Assembly: GCA_025350045.1 (NCBI GenBank)
Contig: JANXYM010000087.1
Location: 1-64,000, forward strand
Length of the DNA: 64,000 nt
DNA from: Methanomicrobiales archaeon
GTDB lineage: Archaea; Halobacteriota; Methanomicrobia; Methanomicrobiales; Methanospirillaceae
Direction of reading: 5' to 3'
Shown: one piece after another, positions 1-9,636 of the stretch
Layout: each line of letters opens with the position of its first letter
Position numbering within the stretch: position 1 is the first letter of the stretch
The notes under the pieces: generated by a model
Told to the model about the DNA's origin: nothing
Seen by the model: the letters and a program-made list of their open reading frames with translations, nothing else
Databases searched by the model: none
Translations under genes and position numbers: made by a program

Positions 1-241
1 CCCCTGCTCCTATCCCAATCTATATCACTGATTCCACCCACATCTGATTAAAAAGGCAACCCGTATGATAACCGCCCGCAATCTCACGAAAAACTTTGAC
101 GGCTTCATGGCACTCGACGGGGTCAGCTTCGGGTTTGAAGACGGGGAGATCTTCGTGAGATTGCGGGCGGTTATCATACGGGTTGCCTTTTTAATCAGAT
201 GTGGGTGGAATCAGTGATATAGATTGGGATAGGAGCAGGGG
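1..241. repeat. Perfect 90-bp inverted repeat (arms 1-90 and 152-241)
   Basis: Bases 152-241 are the exact reverse complement of bases 1-90, with a 61-bp spacer (91-151). The left arm is perfect right up to base 1, so the repeat may continue outside the window. Both arms carry the promoter and start region of an ABC transporter ATPase gene. A repeat this long and perfect at the edge of a sequence is often a fold-back assembly or amplification chimera, but a real inverted duplication is not excluded. Confidence 0.95.
65..217 (+). pseudogene. 5' fragment of an ABC transporter ATP-binding protein, broken by the inverted repeat
   Basis: The reading frame from ATG 65 encodes about 30 residues typical of the start of an ABC-2 type ATPase: ITARNLTKNFDGF, MALDGVSF and EDGEIF. 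The family then continues into the Walker A motif (GFLGPNGAGKTT). Here the frame enters the inverted-repeat arm right after EIF and ends at a TGA at 215-217, so Walker A and everything after it is missing. The junction shares a few bases (TTCG) with the sequence expected in an intact gene. As read, the product cannot bind ATP. It could be the partner of the ATPase-less permeases at 6755-9636, but that is inference. A TATA-like CTATATCAC lies near 20-28. Confidence 0.7.
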
Positions 242-614
242 ACACGAAAAAGATGGATGCTTATCATTCCACTTCACCCCCGACCACGGTTTTCATTGGA
301 TCGGAAGTTATGCGGAAATATGTCCAGTTTTGAATCCAGTCATCAGCAGGACGACCACAATAACCAACGCAACCGCTATACGTACAGACCTCATCCGGCT
401 CTCAGAAAAATACGGGCGAACGGTCATAAGATAGCAAAAATCTGTGCGATGCGGTAAATAGATTGTGAAATATTCTTCCGGGAAAATTCCCCGTTACCTA
501 GCCGGCATCCCAGCTCTCCAATGAATAATGCCCGTTCACTTACATTCATCTCCTGCTCGTTATTTACGGTTCGTTTACAGGCAGTGGCGTTAATTACACA
601 ATCGCTAAAAAAAA
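242..614. other. Gene-poor stretch downstream of the surface-protein operon
   Basis: No convincing gene covers these 373 bases. The only coding-like signal is a 39-residue minus-strand frame at 308-427 (listed separately). The leftward surface-protein gene ends at 615, and a run of A residues at 608-616 on the plus strand gives a U-rich transcript end that may act as its terminator. Confidence 0.5.
308..427 (-). CDS. Possible 39-residue membrane or signal peptide, uncertain
   Basis: A short frame starting at ATG 427 reads MTVRPYFSESRMRSVRIAVA and continues into a strongly hydrophobic segment (about residues 16-29) before a TAA at 308-310. It looks like the N-terminal basic and hydrophobic part of an exported protein or pilin that stops early. 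No clear Shine-Dalgarno site is seen. It could be a small membrane peptide, the remains of a truncated secreted-protein gene, or chance. Confidence 0.2.
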   Translation of the reverse strand: MTVRPYFSESRMRSVRIAVALVIVVVLLMTGFKTGHISA

Positions 615-3341
615 TTATTGCCATTTTCCCGTGACCGGGGTGTCCGTACTCAGGCCCCACGATTGTGTGGTTGTTATTGTACCGTTTTTCAGGTAGAACA
701 CCGCCGTTGAATTGCGGAATACTCCTACATCCGTTAACCCATCCCCGTTCCAGTCTCCCGTGACCGGGGTGTCCGTGCTCAGGCCCCACGATTGTGTGGT
801 TGTTGTTGTTCCGTTTTTCAGGTAAAACACCGCCGTTGAATTACGGAATACTCCCACCAGGGTTGTCGCAGTCCGGAGCGGCGGCAGCGTTACGGAGATG
901 TAATTGGTTCTTGTTGTTGAACTCCAATGTCCAGTACTGTTCTTTACAGATAGTGAAACTGAATAACTTCCACTTTTATTGTAAGTATGCACAGGATCTT
1001 TCAAATTAGAATTCGTTGTATTACCGTCACCAAAACTCCAGTTCCAGCTGGTCGGGCTCCCGGTTGAGGTGTCGGTGAATACCACTGAGAGCGGGGCGGG
1101 GCCCGTGCGGGGGGAGGCGGTGAAGTTGGCTACCGGGGGTGAGAGTTTAAAAGTGGCGGAGATACTGGTACTGGATTGGACATTTGAGACAGTAACATTC
1201 ATGGATGTCTTATCTGTTATTGTCTGAGAAACGGTGTTTACTAAGATAGTATCTATCTCATAGTGGGTATTCGCAGTGACGTTAAAAGACTGGCTTCCGC
1301 CTGCGGGAACCGTGACCGCTGTTGATGGAGTACCCGTTCCCCCGGTTCCATAACTCGGGGTAACAGTGTATGTTGGAGGAGTAATTGTTCTGAACGTAGC
1401 AGAGATTTGAGTATTAGATTGAACGTTCGAGACATATATTGTCATAGATCTCCGATCGGTAATTGTCTGAGAAACGGAGTTGAACAGGATTGTATCAATT
1501 TCATGGGTACTATCTGCGGTGATGGTAAAATGGGGGCTGGTTCCACCTGATGTGACGGTAACCGGTGTTGAGGGGCTGATGGAACCCCCGGTGCCAACGA
1601 CTATTGGGGTGATGGTGTAGGAGGTCGTCCCTGTTTTAAACGTGGCTTCAATTGAGTGGTCATTCTGAATATTTGAAAATGGAATATCGACGCTTGCCTT
1701 ATTCGGACTGTACGTTATTGCATTATTATAATCACTATCTATGACAATTTTATCAATCACATATCCGGTTGTTGATTCGACATGGAAGGATTGACTACTG
1801 CCCTTGGTAATTGTTTGGGATGTGGGTGGGTTAATTGAACCACCTGCTCCAGAAATTGGAGTGATGGTAAATTGATTACTGTTTGTACGGATCCACGTTT
1901 CATAGGTATTATTTTCAATATGAATTCCGCTTAATCCGGGATGTCGAGGAGTTTCTACAGTCACCCTTGGGTCCCAGACCGTACCAGTGAGCCTATTATA
2001 ATTAGAATCATAAATATCGACACTCAAAAAATGGATATCGGCAGGTTTTGCAGAGTCTGAAGGGAACGGAATGCAATTAGAAATTCCATCGGCATTGCAG
2101 TAATATGCTTCATATGCAAGGAAAAGATTGACCGCGTCTGGGGTAATCTGACTAATGTAGTCCGAATGCTGATCAATTAGAAGAGTGGTAAATTGAAGTG
2201 AACCAGTTGATGAAACATCATTTCGCCAGAGGGTGATGTGCCAATAATTCTCCCCCGATGCGTAACCCACAATTCCAGTTACGCGATCACCGGTATTCAG
2301 AACAATTCGATTTTCTGGCTCTGAACAAATAGAATATCCAACTGCTACGATACATGATTCTCCTGTCCAAATATCCTTTGGGGGGTGATAATTAAAAGCG
2401 GAAACCGGTTGCAGGATTTCAGTTTTACTTCCATAAGATGCTGGCTGAATACCATTGAATATCATATTTGACGGGCGGTTTGCTGCAACGTTATCTTCAG
2501 CATGTATGGGATTATTCGGAATTATCCAGTCTGCACTGAACATTGCTATCGGAACAGCCGGATTGTGTTGTGTCCAAGCAACCCAACTTCTCCCGGTGTC
2601 GAGAATCGGAGGAGAAGATGCAAGACCAGACCGACCTACAAAATTGGGCAGTTTGGCATTTGTTATGGATTGAGATGTACCGGTTTCCCGGTTGTCGATA
2701 ATTGTTGCGATAACTGCACCTCCATGCGAGATATGTATATTCTTGCCCACGTGTCGTACAGTGGACCCGGATGGAACTTCTATCACATAATTATCAAGTA
2801 TCATATTTCCTGAATTGATCGCTTTGTTCAATCCTACATCATCAGAAGTGTATTGCTGGATACCATCTGGTGAATAAAACCGGGTTTTTCCATCAGATCC
2901 AAATTCAATAAAACCCCCATAGGGAATCTCAGTCGTTAAATCTCCGTCAATATTTACATTTTTGGCAGAACCAGATGTGGCAACGTTGGATTTTTGTACA
3001 ACAAATGATTTTGATTTAACTTTTTTACTCAATGAATCATTACTCGACAGGGAATTTGCTTTTAATCTCTGTTCACGTGCAGCGATCTCATTTATCACAA
3101 TATCCTTGGAAGCAATGTCTTCAGCAATTGCTGCATCAATCTGTTTCTGGATAATATTAGGAAGAGGGGGGGGGGTCACATTTCTCCCTTCGCCAATCGT
3201 TATTGCGTTTATAGGGATAATTATAATTATTACAAAGAAAAAAAACAAGAAAATATATTTGTTTTCAAACTTACAATTCATTTTAGAAGCCATTGCATTA
3301 ACGGATGACGCCGTGTGGAAAGATGTATGATGGACTTTCAT
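615..3341 (-). CDS. Large exported surface protein with InlB-like repeats, PKD domain and C-terminal FG-GAP/VCBS-like repeats
   Basis: A 908-residue exported protein. A very hydrophobic stretch (about residues 28-46) acts as a signal or anchor segment. Residues 60-490 form a region I cannot assign; it has patches reminiscent of lectin-like beta-sandwich proteins. Three repeats of about 75-80 residues follow (about 490-735; ITP..GTGGSI.P, IDTILxNxVSQTITD, VQSxTxISATF), resembling divergent InlB B-repeats. A PKD domain (about 736-820, with WNWSFGDGNTT) precedes two 43-residue units with DWNGDGLTDVGVFR, an FG-GAP/VCBS-like calcium-binding signature. It is the last gene of a three-gene operon. 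ATG 3341 overlaps the upstream stop as ATGA, with GGAG just before it, so I chose it; ATG 3281 would put the signal peptide at the N-terminus. A C10 run (G at 3166-3175) in the 5' part could cause slippage. Likely a cell-surface adhesin or sheath component; substrate unknown. Confidence 0.8.
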   Translation of the reverse strand: MKVHHTSFHTASSVNAMASKMNCKFENKYIFLFFFFVIIIIIPINAITIGEGRNVTPPPLPNIIQKQIDAAIAEDIASKDIVINEIAAREQRLKANSLSSNDSLSKKVKSKSFVVQKSNVATSGSAKNVNIDGDLTTEIPYGGFIEFGSDGKTRFYSPDGIQQYTSDDVGLNKAINSGNMILDNYVIEVPSGSTVRHVGKNIHISHGGAVIATIIDNRETGTSQSITNAKLPNFVGRSGLASSPPILDTGRSWVAWTQHNPAVPIAMFSADWIIPNNPIHAEDNVAANRPSNMIFNGIQPASYGSKTEILQPVSAFNYHPPKDIWTGESCIVAVGYSICSEPENRIVLNTGDRVTGIVGYASGENYWHITLWRNDVSSTGSLQFTTLLIDQHSDYISQITPDAVNLFLAYEAYYCNADGISNCIPFPSDSAKPADIHFLSVDIYDSNYNRLTGTVWDPRVTVETPRHPGLSGIHIENNTYETWIRTNSNQFTITPISGAGGSINPPTSQTITKGSSQSFHVESTTGYVIDKIVIDSDYNNAITYSPNKASVDIPFSNIQNDHSIEATFKTGTTSYTITPIVVGTGGSISPSTPVTVTSGGTSPHFTITADSTHEIDTILFNSVSQTITDRRSMTIYVSNVQSNTQISATFRTITPPTYTVTPSYGTGGTGTPSTAVTVPAGGSQSFNVTANTHYEIDTILVNTVSQTITDKTSMNVTVSNVQSSTSISATFKLSPPVANFTASPRTGPAPLSVVFTDTSTGSPTSWNWSFGDGNTTNSNLKDPVHTYNKSGSYSVSLSVKNSTGHWSSTTRTNYISVTLPPLRTATTLVGVFRNSTAVFYLKNGTTTTTQSWGLSTDTPVTGDWNGDGLTDVGVFRNSTAVFYLKNGTITTTQSWGLSTDTPVTGKWQ
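618..857 (-). repeat. Tandem 129-bp coding repeat at the 3' end of the surface-protein gene
   Basis: Two near-identical units with a 129-bp period (for example CCCGTGACCGGGGTGTCCG at 628 and again at 757) encode the C-terminal 43-residue FG-GAP-like modules. The second encoded module stops after about 37 residues. The high DNA identity points to recent duplication or ongoing copy-number change. Confidence 0.85.
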
Positions 3342-3901
3342 CTCACTTCATCTCCAAGTGAAGATTCGGTTTTACTAGGATTAATGCGAATGAAAGACCC
3401 GGCTTGTATTGAGTTATTTGACCCATCCCAAACGTAGACATCATAATATTTCGGAGCACGAAAATCAGATATATTTGGAATGTATGACCAAGTGTATACT
3501 CCTCCAGTACCACTCTGTATTTTTACTTGTCCCGATGTTTGAGAATACTGGTAATTAGGTGTTGTTGTATAACCTGGGCCGGGTGGAACACTCATTAATT
3601 CCGGTTCATAGATACTCAAGAAAATCTTCGAATCAGCACCAAGATTTGTCGTCCCGTTGATCTCGAATACATCCCCAACAGTGTGAGAGCCGATTGGGTT
3701 AATCACGATACAAGGATCAGTTTCCGGAGAAACAGAGGGGCATTGTGTTTGAATGGTTGGTCTTATGAATGTAACTACTGGGACTGGAGTCGTGGTAGTT
3801 GTCGTACGGTTCTCCTGAATGTTTTCCGAGAGGCATCCGGTGCCTACTAAAACGCATACCAGTGTGAAGAAAATTAAAATTTTCGTATGAATTCGGGTCA
3901 T
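3338..3901 (-). CDS. Predicted lipoprotein, function unknown
   Basis: A 187-residue protein with a classic lipoprotein signal: basic start, hydrophobic residues 8-19, and a lipobox ending in Cys23 (VGTGC). A Thr/Pro-rich linker (residues 33-50) follows. The C-terminal part is a beta-rich domain with GSHTVGDVFEINGTT and YDVYVWDGSNN, similar in style to methanogen surface proteins that carry a small Ig-like domain. It overlaps the small secreted protein upstream by ATGA (3898-3901) and the large PKD protein downstream by ATGA (3338-3341), so the three are probably translated together. It may anchor or assist the large adhesin; that is inference from context. Confidence 0.75.
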   Translation of the reverse strand: MTRIHTKILIFFTLVCVLVGTGCLSENIQENRTTTTTTPVPVVTFIRPTIQTQCPSVSPETDPCIVINPIGSHTVGDVFEINGTTNLGADSKIFLSIYEPELMSVPPGPGYTTTPNYQYSQTSGQVKIQSGTGGVYTWSYIPNISDFRAPKYYDVYVWDGSNNSIQAGSFIRINPSKTESSLGDEVR

Positions 3902-4080
3902 TTTATCACCGCTACTTCATGATCCTCTAAATTCAAAGTCTTGGACGGAATTATCCATTGCTTATTTCCCATCGTCACAGTTCCAACATTATCAGCACTT
4001 ACGGGTGCAACACAGCAAATCAATGCAACTAATACCAATCCAAAAATAATCCGGTAACCTATCCTCAGCTTTGTAATCAT
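3898..4080 (-). CDS. Small secreted protein, first gene of the surface-protein operon
   Basis: A 60-residue product. I chose ATG 4080 because GAGGAGGT lies 8 bases upstream; a TTG at 4086 would be too close to this site. Residues 1-30 form a signal peptide (basic start, hydrophobic core, likely cleavage after APVSA). This leaves only about 30 mature residues, including MGNKQWIIPSKTLNLED. No family is recognised. It may be a short accessory peptide of the lipoprotein and PKD protein encoded downstream, or an N-terminal remnant of a larger protein; its stop overlaps the next start, which supports a genuine operon position. Confidence 0.6.
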   Translation of the reverse strand: MITKLRIGYRIIFGLVLVALICCVAPVSADNVGTVTMGNKQWIIPSKTLNLEDHEVAVIK

Positions 4081-4221
4081 GCTCAATTACCTCCTCAGCC
4101 ATGCGATTTTAGCAGGTACAATCAAATCTTTCAACGAGAAAAGCGCGCTTCAACTCGCCATCAGACAGACTCGGGTCCATTATCTTTTAAAAAAAATATT
4201 GAACCCTTACTTTGCATAAAA

Positions 4222-4238
4222 ATATTATCAGATAATAT
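4222..4238. promoter_or_regulatory. AT-rich inverted repeat, candidate operator
   Basis: ATATTATC-A-GATAATAT is a perfect 8-bp inverted repeat with a one-base centre. The half-site GATAATAT recurs at 4261-4268. It lies about 145 bp upstream of the surface operon start and the same distance from the antitoxin start, so it could serve either promoter. The binding protein is unknown. Confidence 0.45.
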
Positions 4239-4357
4239 ATATGCGTTGTTAATTGGTCCTGATAATATTCTATCCCGGAGCATTTTCCCATCAGGAAGTA
4301 TAAGCGTTGGTATGACACAGATTTTCCTGCTCAACCCAAAATACTAATACCCCCGGA

Positions 4358-4375
4358 AGTAAGACATATCTTACT
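4358..4375. promoter_or_regulatory. Inverted repeat next to antitoxin start, candidate TA operator
   Basis: AGTAAGA-CATA-TCTTACT has perfect 7-bp arms and ends 8 bases before the antitoxin ATG at 4384. AbrB-fold antitoxins commonly bind such sites and repress their own operon, so autoregulation is a reasonable inference. Confidence 0.5.
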
Positions 4376-4383
4376 GATAAATC

Positions 4384-4650
4384 ATGGATGTTGCAATAAC
4401 CAAAATGAGTTCCAAAGGCCAGGTTGTCATCCCCACATCGATGCGAACCGATCTTCCCGAAGGTGAGAGGATCCTGCTCATCAAGGATGGGGAACGGATC
4501 ATTCTCAAACGGCTGACCGATCTTGAGCCGGCATTACAAGACGATGTCCTGTTCGCGGAAAAGACCGAAGAGGCATTCGAAGAATACAGGAAAGGAACGT
4601 TCATCCGGAAGAAAGAGGGTGAGTTCATCGATGAGATAGCCTCATGGTAA
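4384..4650 (+). CDS. AbrB/MazE-fold antitoxin
   Basis: An 88-residue protein. Residues 1-45 match the SpoVT/AbrB swapped-hairpin DNA-binding fold, with the diagnostic TKMSSKGQVVIPTSMR followed by LPEGERILLIKDGERIIL. The C-terminal half (AEKTEEAFEEYRKGTF) is charged and helical, as expected for the part that wraps and neutralises a toxin. The gene overlaps the downstream RelE-type toxin by 7 bp (4644-4650), the usual arrangement of a type II toxin-antitoxin operon. The inverted repeat just upstream is a likely autoregulatory site. Confidence 0.85.
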   Translation: MDVAITKMSSKGQVVIPTSMRTDLPEGERILLIKDGERIILKRLTDLEPALQDDVLFAEKTEEAFEEYRKGTFIRKKEGEFIDEIASW

Positions 4651-4892
4651 CGGTCTCATATCACCCGCACTTTGAAAGAACAATCCGGAAGATCAGTGAT
4701 GCCCGGCTTAAGGAACACGTAAAGCAGCAGATCATCAGAATCATCGGGAACCCCTCTCTCGGAAAACCAATGCGATATTGCCGGAAGCAGACCCGCGAGG
4801 TTTACATCCCGCCGTTCCGGTTATCCTACTGGTATGATAAGAGTCAGGACACGCTTGTCTTCCTTGCGCTGTACCACAAGGATGAACAGTAG
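4644..4892 (+). CDS. RelE/ParE-superfamily toxin
   Basis: An 82-residue protein with the small RelE/ParE fold. It starts VTVSYHPHFERTIRKI, has the central basic helix (LKEHVKQQIIRII) and GNPSLGKPMRYCRK, then the REVYIPPFRLSYWY and DTLVFLALYHKDEQ strands typical of RelE-like mRNA interferases. The C-terminal YHKDE segment matches the catalytic end of many RelE/YoeB relatives, so ribosome-dependent mRNA cleavage is more likely than gyrase inhibition, but this is inference. It is the second gene of the TA pair and overlaps the antitoxin by 7 bp. Confidence 0.85.
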   Translation: MVTVSYHPHFERTIRKISDARLKEHVKQQIIRIIGNPSLGKPMRYCRKQTREVYIPPFRLSYWYDKSQDTLVFLALYHKDEQ

Positions 4893-5880
4893 TTATCTAT
4901 CCACAACACTGACCGGTAAATTTGGTGTGAACCATTCGTATGAGTGAATCATCGGATTCATTGCTTACATTCCAAAGATCCGGTTATACCGGTAATTTCC
5001 CGAACAGAACATACCGGATCCTTTCCTTCTTCATGAACCACCCCTCCTGATCAGTCTTCTCCTCGGTTTTTTAAAAGATTGAAGAAATAATTGCACCATA
5101 GTTTGTGTGACCGTTTCGGAAGCACCTTGAGGAGAAGTGCATACTCCAGGTGAATGATCCCATCCCCAAAAAACAGGGGTTTTTTTCATCAGCAGGGTCT
5201 GGGTTATGGCAGGAAAAAAGGGGCGATTTAAACGCGGCTAAATTGCAGGGTTGATTCCTGATATAATCGGCTTTTTTCTTAAACAATCCATTTTCCAATG
5301 ACTTTAAGATTGCCGTAGACACTGTTTCCTGTTCTGAAAATAACCAGATCCCCGGATTGGCAAAAGGAGGCTGAAATGAACCCCGAATAGTACAGGGCTT
5401 CCGGATACCCATGGATCCCGGTAAGGGTGCCGGACCTTGCCAGAGCGAACTATAAGATCCGCTTCTAAGACTGTGGGATACCTACAGTATTCCAAATCCA
5501 TTTCTTCGTCGGAAAAGTACTCCCCGGTCAGAGATCCCGGCCCCTAAAATATGCAGGATTGGGGGAATTCCGGTATGCCGGTTTTATAAAACCTCAATTT
5601 ACGCTCCGTTTTGCTAAATTATGCATAAAACAACCTGAAAAAAGTATGCTAATAGCACCATTTGGGTGGTCGATCGTTTGCCGGATGGACCAATATTGGT
5701 GAAAAATGAAAAGAAGGCCTGTTTTGGGACAGTACCGGGAAATGATATCGTCGTAGACAGGAGTGGATTTGGCGATGATCGTTGAAACGGGAGGAAGAGA
5801 TACTCCTCATGTCCATATGCCATTCAAGACCGTTGCTCACACAAGTTTTGATGGGACTGTACCGACGGATCCAAAATTTC

Positions 5881-6476
5881 AAATCAAAGCTCGCCCGGAA
5901 TTCCTGAATCAGGATCCGGTTGAAAGATCAAAATCGAGATCCTGTTGAAAACCTGAAATCGAGATCCGATTGATACGGCAACCGTTTTCAAACGCGATCA
6001 CGACCGCGATAAAAATTTCTGAATCAGGGTTTGATGAAAAAATCGTAATCAAAATCTGCCCAAAAAATTCAAATCACGATCCGGTTGAAAATTCCAAATC
6101 GAAGCTTGATGAAAAATTTTGAATCGGGGTCTGCTCGACAATTGCAAATCAGGATCCGGTGGTGAATTCAAAATCAAAGTCCACCCGGAAGCTTTCAATC
6201 GGGTTGTGGTTGAAAATTACAGCTCCGTAGAAATCCTTTTCTTCCTACAATTCGGTTATACTCTTTTAGTAATTATGAGTGTGACCCCCTCTCTCCTCCC
6301 TGAGGGGGAGGCAGCCCAAGGGGAGCGTCCCCTTGACCCCCTCTTTTTTTGAGGATTTCAACAGAGCCAAAATTACCCATCAAAATCTGCTCCAAAATTT
6401 TCGATCAGATTCCGGTTCAAATTTTAAATTGAAACTCGATCGAAAATTGTTGAGCAGGGTCTGTTGAAATTTTTTG
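5881..6476. repeat. Degenerate 25-bp tandem repeat array
   Basis: Units of 25-26 bp recur with the pattern AAATC, then GATCCGGTTGAAAA about three bases later; clear copies start at 5931, 5956, 6069 and 6144. About a dozen units run from 5881 to 6220 and a few more from about 6380 to 6476. The period is not a multiple of three and the units contain stop codons, so this is not a protein repeat. Units abut without unique spacers, so it is not a CRISPR array. Confidence 0.7.
6282..6350. repeat. Hairpin element flanked by 11-bp direct repeats
   Basis: TGACCCCCTCT occurs at 6282-6292 and again at 6334-6344. Between them lie a G/C-rich imperfect palindrome (around 6293-6311) and a perfect hairpin, CAAGGGGA-GCG-TCCCCTTG (6317-6335). 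A T-run (6344-6350) follows. The element interrupts the 25-bp repeat array and resembles a small REP-like or MITE-like palindromic unit; the T-run could also make it a terminator. Confidence 0.55.
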
Positions 6477-6754
6477 ACCCATGAGATAAAAGGAACACGA
6501 AAAATCCTGAGTAACATAAAAACCCGCATCCAATCTGCGAACAGGAACCCAACCAGCCCATCAATCTAAGTACCGCAGCACTCAAATCCGAAACAAAAAC
6601 ATGAACCAACCCAACTCCCCCAACCACTATCCCTGAAAAAAATTGCAAGTACCGATGGGTATTTTACCGATACCCCATATTATTCTGTACTCATAACCTC
6701 ACCGCATCCCGCACCAGGGACACGTCTGGCCGGTGAGAAGAGACAGGAAACCCC

Positions 6755-8560
6755 ATGGGCTGGCTTACCGACATCTCCACCATCGCGCGATGGGAAGTGA
6801 AGAAATCCTTGACCATGATGAGCCGGGAAGTCCTCCCGTTCGCCATCGTCCTCTTCATCCTCCTGGTCGCAGTCACAGGCTTTGCCGCCCAGTCGGGCAT
6901 GCACCTCCAGGACGGCATGTATGAAGTGGGCGTGGATGATCCCCGGGTAGCAGAGCTGATCGCCAGCGATGCCCGGTTCTCCGTGTACCGGGCAGATCCT
7001 GCCATCCTCGAGAAGAACCGGAATGCATTTGACCTGGTCATCATGAACGGCCAGGTGTACAGCAGCGGGACCGACCGGGCAAAGGCGGCACAGAAAACAC
7101 TCGAACGCGATTATGCCAAGTATGTCAACTCGGTCTACAACCGGGAATCGGATCTCTTCGCCGCGTACCCGCTCTGGATCGATGTCCAGACCGTAAAAAG
7201 CGAGCTCACCTTCTTATCCACCCAGTCGGGCCAGTACGTCCAGGCAGCCCCCGGCCGTAAAGCACCGGTTCCCGAAGGGGAGATAAGCGCCATCCCCACA
7301 CCATCCGCTTCGCTGGATTTTACCAAAGAAGAGCTCCGGCAGGAACTGGTCAAGACGAGTTCAAAGAACACCCAGATCTCGCGCTACACCGAAGTCCTCT
7401 CTGCCGAGAGCACGATGGGCAGGTTCAAGACTCCATCGCAGCTCTCGCCCCCGCTACCATTTGACTCCATCATCCTCATCTTCGTCTTCATCTTCCCGCT
7501 CTACTTCACCTCCCAGTTCTTCATGATGAGCATCATGAACGAGCGTATCGAGCGCAAAGGTGAAGTCCTGCTCTCCACACCCGTGGCATCCTCATCGATT
7601 ATCCTCGGAAAGATGATCCCGTATTTCATCGGCATGCTCGCCATCTGCACCGCACTCACCCTCTACGTCAGGGCGCCCCTGATCATCCTCCTCCCGCTTA
7701 TCCCGGTCATCGTCTTCTTCCTGGCAAATGCCCTCCTGATCGGCATGCTCTCGCGCAGCTTCAAGGAGCTCTCGTTCATCTCGATCTTCTTCTCAACGGT
7801 TGCTACCTCGTACCTGTTCTTCCCCAGCATCTTTGCAAACGTCCATGTCATCTCCCTCATCTCGCCCCTGACGCTGATCGTCCTCTCGATACAGGCAAGC
7901 CCGTGGACTGTCACCGACTACCTCTACTCCACCTCCCTCTTCTGGCTGACCGGAGCGGTACTCTTCTACATCGGGATCAGGAACTTCAAGGAGGAACGGC
8001 TCTTTTCAGAAAAACCACTCCTGCCCCGGATCCGCGAGTTCCTCTCCGAGATTATGAGCCGGAAGCACCCGTTTCTCTCCGTCTTTTTGCTGGCCGGGTT
8101 CTCCATACCGTTTGTGTTCATGGTGCAGCTGATGAGCCTCACGCTCTTTTTCAACCTGCCCATGCCGTATTCGCTGGTGCTCCTCCTCATCTTTGCCGCA
8201 CTGGTTGAGGAGTGTGCAAAAGCGGTAGGTATCTACACGCTCTTTGCCCAGGACCCGGCGTTCCTCACCGGGAAGAACCTGCTTGCCGCCTGCGCAGCAA
8301 CCGCGATCGGGTTCCTGGTGGCAGAAAAACTGCTTCTCTTCATCACGCTCGCCCAGATCAGCGAATCCGTTTTCGGCAGCATCCTCTTCCTGTCACTGGG
8401 CGTGCTCTGGATGCCGCTGCTCCTGCATTTTGCCGGCGTGCTGATCGTGGCCTGTTCGCTGAAGTTCTGGGGGCGCAAAGGCCTCGTCATCGGCCTCGTG
8501 ACTGCCACGGCAGTTCACTGCCTGTATAATCTCTACTTTATCCTGGGGTGGATCGGATGA
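6755..8560 (+). CDS. ABC-2 type permease fused to a PrsW-like intramembrane protease domain
   Basis: A 601-residue membrane protein with two parts. Residues 1-420 are an ABC-2 permease of the NatB/Na+-efflux style: one membrane span near residue 30, a long external region (about 50-245), then a cluster of spans with the family signature NERIERKGEVLLSTP near 265. Residues 435-601 form a second multi-span region with PrsW/CPBP-type protease motifs: EECAK (E485, E486, K489), GFLVAEK (E524), a membrane His (H558) and HCLYN (H588). In PrsW-like proteases these acidic and His residues bind the catalytic metal. The stop overlaps the next permease start (ATGA). No ATPase is adjacent. Possible roles are export of a toxic compound or peptide with membrane-protein cleavage; the substrate is unknown. 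Confidence 0.75.
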   Translation: MGWLTDISTIARWEVKKSLTMMSREVLPFAIVLFILLVAVTGFAAQSGMHLQDGMYEVGVDDPRVAELIASDARFSVYRADPAILEKNRNAFDLVIMNGQVYSSGTDRAKAAQKTLERDYAKYVNSVYNRESDLFAAYPLWIDVQTVKSELTFLSTQSGQYVQAAPGRKAPVPEGEISAIPTPSASLDFTKEELRQELVKTSSKNTQISRYTEVLSAESTMGRFKTPSQLSPPLPFDSIILIFVFIFPLYFTSQFFMMSIMNERIERKGEVLLSTPVASSSIILGKMIPYFIGMLAICTALTLYVRAPLIILLPLIPVIVFFLANALLIGMLSRSFKELSFISIFFSTVATSYLFFPSIFANVHVISLISPLTLIVLSIQASPWTVTDYLYSTSLFWLTGAVLFYIGIRNFKEERLFSEKPLLPRIREFLSEIMSRKHPFLSVFLLAGFSIPFVFMVQLMSLTLFFNLPMPYSLVLLLIFAALVEECAKAVGIYTLFAQDPAFLTGKNLLAACAATAIGFLVAEKLLLFITLAQISESVFGSILFLSLGVLWMPLLLHFAGVLIVACSLKFWGRKGLVIGLVTATAVHCLYNLYFILGWIG

Positions 8561-9636
8561 AAGCACGTCACCTGTCAATCATTGCAAAGAAAGAGTTCCG
8601 GGGATTGTTCAACGAGCGCACGATCCTGCTTGCGGTCCTGCTCCAGCTCTTCATCGCCATGTTCTCATCGTTCCTCATGGTCGGGCTCACCTCCATGTAT
8701 GACCCGTCCTCGCTCTCGAAGTATTCACGGTACAAGTACAACATCGCGTACGCCGGCAACGATTCGGCGGTGCTCGAATACCTCCAGACCAGCCCGGACT
8801 TCCGGGTCTACCCGATGGATCTGTCTACCGGGGTTGCTGCATTAAAGGAGCGGAAACTGTCGGCAGTTATCTACGTACCTGACACTTCACCCTCGGCTGA
8901 TGAACCGGTCAAGATCACGTTGTATACGCTGACCAATGATCTCCAGAGTGCGATTGTTGATGTAAAACTCAAGGATGTTTTCTTAAAATACGAAAAGGAC
9001 CTGCGCCAGATACGGATAGACCGGCTGGGGGAACTGCCAATCCCGCTGCAGGTTCCCAAAAGCAGCGGGGGCGGGGACTTCTACGAGTTTGTGTATGGCC
9101 TGCTGATCCCCCTGCTGGTCTTTATGCCGGCCATCATCGCATCAGCGCTGGTCATCGATCTCATCACCGAGGAGTACCAGCACGAGACTTTGGAGACCCT
9201 CATCTCGACACCCATTACGTTTTCGGAGATGGTCTGGGGCAAGGTGCTGGCCTGCGAGCTGCTGGTCCCGATCCAGGCAGGGGCGTGGCTGCTGCTCTTA
9301 ATGGTCAACGGCATTGCGATCCAGAATGCCGGGCTGATCCTGCTGCAGGTTGTGGTTACGTCGCTCATCCTGATCCTGCTCGGTGCTCTCACTGCCCTGC
9401 ACTACCGCGAACGGACGGCAGCACAGTTCATCTTCTCCACTGCACTCGTGGTCGTGATCCTCTTTGTCTTGGCCTTACCGTCAAACCCGCTCAACCTGCT
9501 CACCCGGCTTGCGGTGGGAACTGCCGGTCCCGAACAATGGCTGGTGCTCGCAGCAACGGGAAGTGTCATCATCATCCTGGGGTACCTGACCCAGAAATAT
9601 GCTGAACGGGGGGGAAAATCTCACCATGCGGGATGA
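8557..9636 (+). CDS. ABC-2 type permease (second subunit)
   Basis: A 359-residue permease starting at ATG 8557, which overlaps the upstream stop as ATGA; an in-frame GTG at 8548 is an alternative. It begins with a cytosolic KKEFRGLFNERTI motif, a first span (about 25-45), a long extracytoplasmic part (about 50-180) and five more spans. The family signature TEEYQHETLETLISTPITF after the second span (about 205-225) is the conserved coupling region of ABC-2 permeases. With the upstream gene it should make a heteromeric channel that needs an ATPase, which is not encoded next to it. Confidence 0.85.
   Translation: MKARHLSIIAKKEFRGLFNERTILLAVLLQLFIAMFSSFLMVGLTSMYDPSSLSKYSRYKYNIAYAGNDSAVLEYLQTSPDFRVYPMDLSTGVAALKERKLSAVIYVPDTSPSADEPVKITLYTLTNDLQSAIVDVKLKDVFLKYEKDLRQIRIDRLGELPIPLQVPKSSGGGDFYEFVYGLLIPLLVFMPAIIASALVIDLITEEYQHETLETLISTPITFSEMVWGKVLACELLVPIQAGAWLLLLMVNGIAIQNAGLILLQVVVTSLILILLGALTALHYRERTAAQFIFSTALVVVILFVLALPSNPLNLLTRLAVGTAGPEQWLVLAATGSVIIILGYLTQKYAERGGKSHHAG

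Follow-up and report, generated by a model that had tools for sequence, protein, structure and literature searches.

The analysis presented here describes, in the genome of a Methanomicrobiales archaeon, a single gene in which an ABC-2 permease is joined to a C-terminal PrsW-type domain, and which belongs to a three-gene set together with a second ABC-2 permease and an ABC ATPase. The stretch of DNA analysed, hereafter the window, takes up the opening 64 kb of contig C78, in a 2.53-Mb genome assembled in 121 contigs, and the window start coincides with the contig start. The gene architecture (Table 1) is firm. Specifically, the permease–PrsW fusion proposed in an earlier, sequence-only reading of this DNA was borne out, as a match to PF12698 (40.7 bits, against a Pfam cut-off of 31.6) and the C-terminal motif segment lie in one and the same reading frame, and E485, E486, K489, E524, H558, H588 and N592 are present exactly at the residue numbers given in that reading. 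The second permease exceeds the same PF12698 cut-off, with 60.9 bits. Among named organisms, the closest relatives of this protein, at 91% identity, come from Methanoregula and other Methanomicrobiales.

Table 1. Features of the fusion locus and of the contig end, in window coordinates.
Feature	Position	Strand	Basis or remark
ABC-2 permease (residues 1 to ~430) joined to PrsW-type domain (~436-601)	6755..8560	+	ORF, 601 aa
PrsW-type domain, residues 436-601	8060..8557	+	PF13367, hhalign, conservation; EE485/486..K489, F520...E524-K525, H558, H588..YN592
Second ABC-2 permease, 362 aa	8548..9636	+	PF12698; overlaps 3' end of fusion gene
ATPase codons 1-30, copied onto the + strand in the fold-back	65..154	.	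contig-end fold-back
Exact 90-bp inverted repeat, 1-90 / 152-241	1..241	.	contig end

The association of the fusion with its partners was assessed at 80 order-level loci, out of 82 positive genomes, and at 34 further loci fetched across the phylum (one of the same family, the other 33 of different orders). The second permease adjoins the fusion in 77 of the 80 order-level loci, the remaining three stopping within the fusion gene, and in all of the 34 further loci. In 78 of the 80 order-level loci, an ABC ATPase gene flanks the fusion upstream in divergent orientation, with gaps of 75-2711 bp, and the two loci without it (L049 and the window) are contig ends. In the further set, the ATPase adjoins the fusion in 30 of the 34 loci, divergently in 19 and on the same strand in 11, and in the other four genomes the best ATPase homologue is found elsewhere in the genome, at 45-51% identity. 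This ATPase carries PF00005, has LSKGM and not LSGG as its signature, and is nearest to the DrrA model with a score below the cut-off of that model; its homologues mostly count 293-297 codons, a few copies being longer, cut or broken. At one locus (L089, 3365-4260) the ATPase of genome G027 is split in two frames, with one in-frame stop, and the fusion is kept in that genome.

All together, the ATPase is the normal neighbour of the fusion, placed divergently or, in one clade, in the same operon. The earlier claim that the permease has no ATPase beside it, unusual for ABC-2 systems, does not hold among the relatives. When the fusion was looked for in other archaea, as that reading advised, to see whether an ATPase gene always adjoins it, the fusion recurred, and adjacency was found at the large majority of the order-level and phylum-wide loci and not at all of them.

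In the window genome, the ATPase gene is not truncated but interrupted by a break in the assembly. The start codon of the true gene is at base 177 of the - strand, from where the gene leaves the contig, and its remainder, codons 39-296, opens contig C103 of the same genome (C103:1-774). This piece, which is the sole ATPase match in the window genome at E 1e-60, begins with the last residues of the Walker A motif, GKTTLL. Because the contig end carries the 90-bp inverted repeat and the rest of the gene lies on C103, the piece at position 65, previously taken for a truncated ATPase, is a contig-end effect, and the link drawn earlier between a missing ATPase and a truncated one is not supported. 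The repeat itself, close to where the ATPase has its Walker A region, is probably a fold-back that arose in assembly or amplification.

When 100 genomes of relatives were searched, the fusion was present in 82, almost always as a single match per genome, and the ATPase (E 1e-60) in 80. At this threshold the ATPase is missing from all 18 fusion-less genomes, and in the two genomes with the fusion and no ATPase match (G023 and G058) the locus is at a contig end. Across the phylum, matches to the fusion profile were found in 214 of 392 genomes, and every one of the 34 fetched loci contains the fusion and the second permease. The only neighbours recurring phylum-wide are the ATPase, the fusion and the second permease, beyond which synteny is seen only at the level of the order; no conserved substrate or regulator gene was found beside the three-gene set in the neighbour survey of the phylum-wide loci, and no split permease/PrsW pair among 114 loci. 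The tree largely follows taxonomic families, with the 11 same-strand loci forming one clade (100/100) and the 15 rows of the window's order another (100/100), a topology that fits vertical inheritance. We read the three genes as a set passed down in much of the archaeal phylum to which both Methanomicrobiales and haloarchaea belong. On a plasmid of the haloarchaeon Haladaptatus salinisoli, the genes annotated as ATP-binding protein, permease subunit and permease overlap head to tail. In addition, a contig scan for relatives returned 119 related stretches, and the best 80 of these 119 all carry methanogen or euryarchaeal titles. The ten fusion-less genomes listed for genus g29 (family f6) are near complete (1.6-2.0 Mb), so that the system is dispensable in this genus.

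We assayed the relation of the C-terminal domain to PrsW through profile comparisons. A genome search with PF13367 scored the window at 25.4 bits against a cut-off of 23.5, at positions 8081-8551, and 19 of the 20 fused matches listed in this search exceed the cut-off; hmmscan runs with the proteins (the full protein, residues 431-601 and 72 relatives) did not list PF13367. The hhalign comparison of the domain with 17 free-standing PrsW proteins of the same order gave a probability of 92.5% and an E-value of 4.9e-7, with the EExxK motif, the motif-2 Glu, the His and the HxxxN motif all in register, and the control comparisons returned E 0.49 for the permease half and E 0.16 for the reversed domain. 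A profile search against PDB sequences gave no match up to E 1.

The available text of Ovchinnikov et al. (PMC4602095) assigns the EExxK of PrsW to TM3, its His to TM5 and its HxxxD to TM6, on a four-helix core common to PrsW and the archaeal type II CAAX protease. In the structure model of the fusion protein, the motifs fall in the successive predicted helices 472-499, 506-536, 552-572 and 575-596. The domain shares with PrsW (PF13367) the EExxK and FxxxE motifs, the helix-5 His and HxxxN, in the same helix order. It differs in two respects: PrsW is free-standing in B. subtilis and in free-standing copies found among relatives, whereas the window domain is fused to a permease, and motif 2 reads EK in the window domain and EN in PrsW. 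The EExxxR motif of CPBP/Rce1 does not occur in the 48-protein alignment described below, where the domain has EExxK.

Conservation of the motifs was followed at increasing phylogenetic distance. Within the order, all seven motif residues are identical in 77 of 77 proteins (the 80 loci minus three contig-cut copies). In the 35 rows formed by the 34 further loci and the window, E485, E486, K489, E524, K525, H558 and H588 are kept throughout, while position 592 is N in 33 rows and D in the remaining two. A phylum-wide joint alignment of 48 proteins, with identity to the window protein down to 21%, retains only 18 invariant columns, eight of which are within the last 171 residues and correspond to E485, E486, K489, E524, K525, P554, H558 and H588. 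When the relatives were checked for loss of motif residues from the C-terminal domain, six of the seven thus proved invariant, and N592 is kept in 46 of the 48, again with D in the other two. The identity of all seven residues within the order and of six of them across the phylum shows that they are not there by chance, and such near-absolute conservation marks a site under selection. In a separate alignment of 72 proteins EExxK is kept in 71; the exception, L185 (5001-6773), is a fusion protein with R in place of K489, the sole change at the seven motif residues among these 72 proteins.

The full-length structure model is modest (pLDDT 72.0, pTM 0.62) and does not give the packing of the two halves. 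Residues 3-414 match ABC exporters, with a best Z of 15.3, the fold matches of this half including a mycobacterial efflux pump and ABCG/ABCH, NosDFY and Wzm chains. As for the C-terminal part, and bearing in mind that for helical proteins Z values below about 13 can stem from a common helix arrangement, residues 436-601 of the full model match APH-1 (Z 10.9, 155 aligned residues, rmsd 4.4) and residues 453-601 match Rce1 (4cad; Z 5.4, 112 aligned, rmsd 3.4, 19% identity), while the domain modelled alone (432-601; pLDDT 89.0, pTM 0.83) has as top matches a multipass-translocon chain and APH-1 chains, with Z 10.8 each, and also matches SagB-SpdC (6u0o; Z 5.1). Rce1 4cad is listed for the full model only, being absent among the 50 best rows for the domain alone, and Foldseek gave no match at E <= 0.001 with either model. 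These fold matches of a helical bundle are to be regarded as suggestive, not as proof.

Loop charges were used to derive the membrane topology. Across the 48 proteins, Lys plus Arg per 10 residues amounts to 1.6-3.7 in the predicted inside loops and to 0.1-0.9 in the outside loops, a pattern that fits six plus five TM helices with the N-terminus inside. On the basis of these charges and of the usual six-helix layout of ABC-2 permeases, the PrsW site is predicted to lie toward the outer half of the membrane.

As a phylum-wide exporter with its own intramembrane protease fits, in fused form, the logic of EcsAB–RasP/Eep, we favour a cut-then-export reading, held tentatively and with slightly less than even confidence, in which the three-gene ABC-2 exporter would cut membrane peptides by means of its PrsW domain and then expel them. 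Specifically, the PrsW domain, acting as a glutamate-type intramembrane protease, would clip a membrane-inserted peptide at the outer half of the membrane, candidate substrates being a signal-peptide remnant, a lipoprotein leader or a small membrane protein; the two permeases, powered by the neighbouring ATPase, would draw the fragment from the bilayer and release it outside, and the physical fusion would couple cutting and export. In this scheme catalysis, the peptide substrate, the coupling, the export direction and the order of the steps are what we infer; the data themselves show the gene architecture, the association of the three genes, the conserved site, the kinship with PrsW and the topology pattern. 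The earlier suggestion that the fusion cuts a substrate or signal peptide during export is plausible. More doubtful is the bolder version, in which a one-polypeptide machine would use an intramembrane glutamate protease to free peptides in the bilayer and hand them to its own exporter pore, serving peptide disposal or secretion throughout the phylum. In the sources available, EcsAB is described as needed for, or working with, RasP/Eep in clearing or exporting membrane peptides (PMC7157817, PMC2996298), and lipoprotein-leader peptides of Staphylococcus aureus are released in two stages, being processed by Eep and then exported by EcsAB (PMC7157817). The parallel with EcsAB–RasP is one of analogy and not of homology.

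Readings that invoke signalling, sorting, a scaffold or unrelated functions rank below cut-then-export. To our knowledge, archaea are without bacterial-type sigma and anti-sigma factors, which counts against the idea that transport state or membrane stress opens the PrsW domain for a first cut in a membrane-anchored regulator, like that of B. subtilis PrsW on RsiW. An active site toward the outer side of the membrane, as predicted here, would suit such a signalling arm, as would the description of PrsW as the founding site-1 protease (available text of PMC4602095), but a regulator gene conserved beside the three-gene set was not found, and we consider it unlikely. Glutamate-type intramembrane proteases are also described, in the accessible part of PMC11980579, as sorting surface proteins, and a domain that, in the manner of myxosortase or Rce1, strips off C-terminal or lipoprotein anchors, with the pump moving lipid or protein to the outer leaflet, would agree with the broad, housekeeping-like distribution of the locus; since no tagged substrate gene is linked to it and the motif is EExxK with FxxxE, not EExxxR, this role seems rather less probable still.

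Could the domain be a non-catalytic scaffold, stabilising the permease or guiding membrane substrates? APH-1 and TMEM147 have the same fold without proteolysis, and it is a multipass-translocon chain and an APH-1 chain that lead the fold matches of residues 432-601. However, the predicted catalytic residues are invariant in 48 proteins down to 21% identity, unlike those of a decayed site, which makes a scaffold improbable. Lastly, the likeness of the permease half to efflux-pump, ABCG/ABCH, NosDFY and Wzm chains, and of the ATPase to the DrrA model below its cut-off, would be expected of an ordinary drug or lipid exporter whose protease acts separately on unrelated membrane proteins; nevertheless, the fusion is kept in every near-full-length member aligned (77/77 and 48/48) and is never replaced by a split pair among the 114 loci, and we regard this as very unlikely.

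Fusions of a protease with an exporter are known already. In C39 peptidase-containing ABC transporters, protease and exporter form one polypeptide and the cut is coupled to export; their peptidase is a soluble cysteine enzyme and their exporter has a different fold, and no C39 peptidase domain was matched in either permease at E <= 1 in Pfam. Another is NF041647 (NCBIfam, ABC transporter permease subunit/CPBP intramembrane protease), which also joins an ABC-2 permease to a glutamate-type intramembrane protease. Here the protease is PrsW-type and not CPBP, and it is joined to another kind of permease: the permease half of NF041647 resembles the second permease of our locus (45.7 bits), not the fused one, which suggests, on sequence grounds, that the two fusions arose independently. 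With its cut-off of 435 bits NF041647 does not match the fusion protein, and none of 146 genomes of the phylum reaches this cut-off. The EcsAB/PptAB plus RasP/Eep systems of Firmicutes likewise place an ABC exporter and an intramembrane protease in one peptide pathway (available parts of PMC7157817 and PMC2996298); they are separate proteins, with a membrane metalloprotease of the site-2 kind and a permease of another family, and the EcsB model matched neither permease at E <= 1 in Pfam.

PrsW has been described as joined to other domains in polymorphic toxins and in archaeal PH0065, with a proposed role in processing and release, and no permease fusion is among those listed in the accessible portion of that source (PMC3482391). 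Likewise, the main text of PMC11237513, on archaeal fusions, does not contain the term "PrsW", and no description of an ABC permease–PrsW fusion was found in the literature searched, whose reach stopped short of subscription papers. The RefSeq label of the haloarchaeal copy reads only "ABC transporter permease subunit", so that the protease half is unlabelled there. If the bolder, one-polypeptide version is true, a system by which an entire archaeal phylum disposes of membrane peptides or secretes peptides has so far been annotated merely as an ABC permease. The matter bears on what archaea do with cleaved signal peptides and other membrane peptides and on the role of archaeal PrsW-type proteases, and it offers a protease and a pump in one gene with two fixed partners, in cultivable groups whose haloarchaeal carriers are genetically tractable.

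As for the genomic surroundings, ATPase start and permease start are about 6.5 kb apart in the window genome (interval 217-6755), compared with 75-2711 bp in 78 relatives, and this gap varies strongly within the window genus. In the window genome the gap holds, by sequence inspection, a surface-protein-like ORF, a small lipoprotein-like ORF, a toxin–antitoxin-like pair and a repeat region. The pair, at 4384-4892, consists of overlapping AbrB/MazE-like (88 aa) and RelE-like (82 aa) ORFs and is likely a toxin–antitoxin module. The repeat, at 5883-6424, is degenerate and non-coding, its period being close to 25 nt. A query covering 5600-6240 matches 21 places in its own genome and 20 of 24 window-genus genomes (own included), against none of 16 from other genera, and within it positions 5600-5728 form a separate dispersed element.
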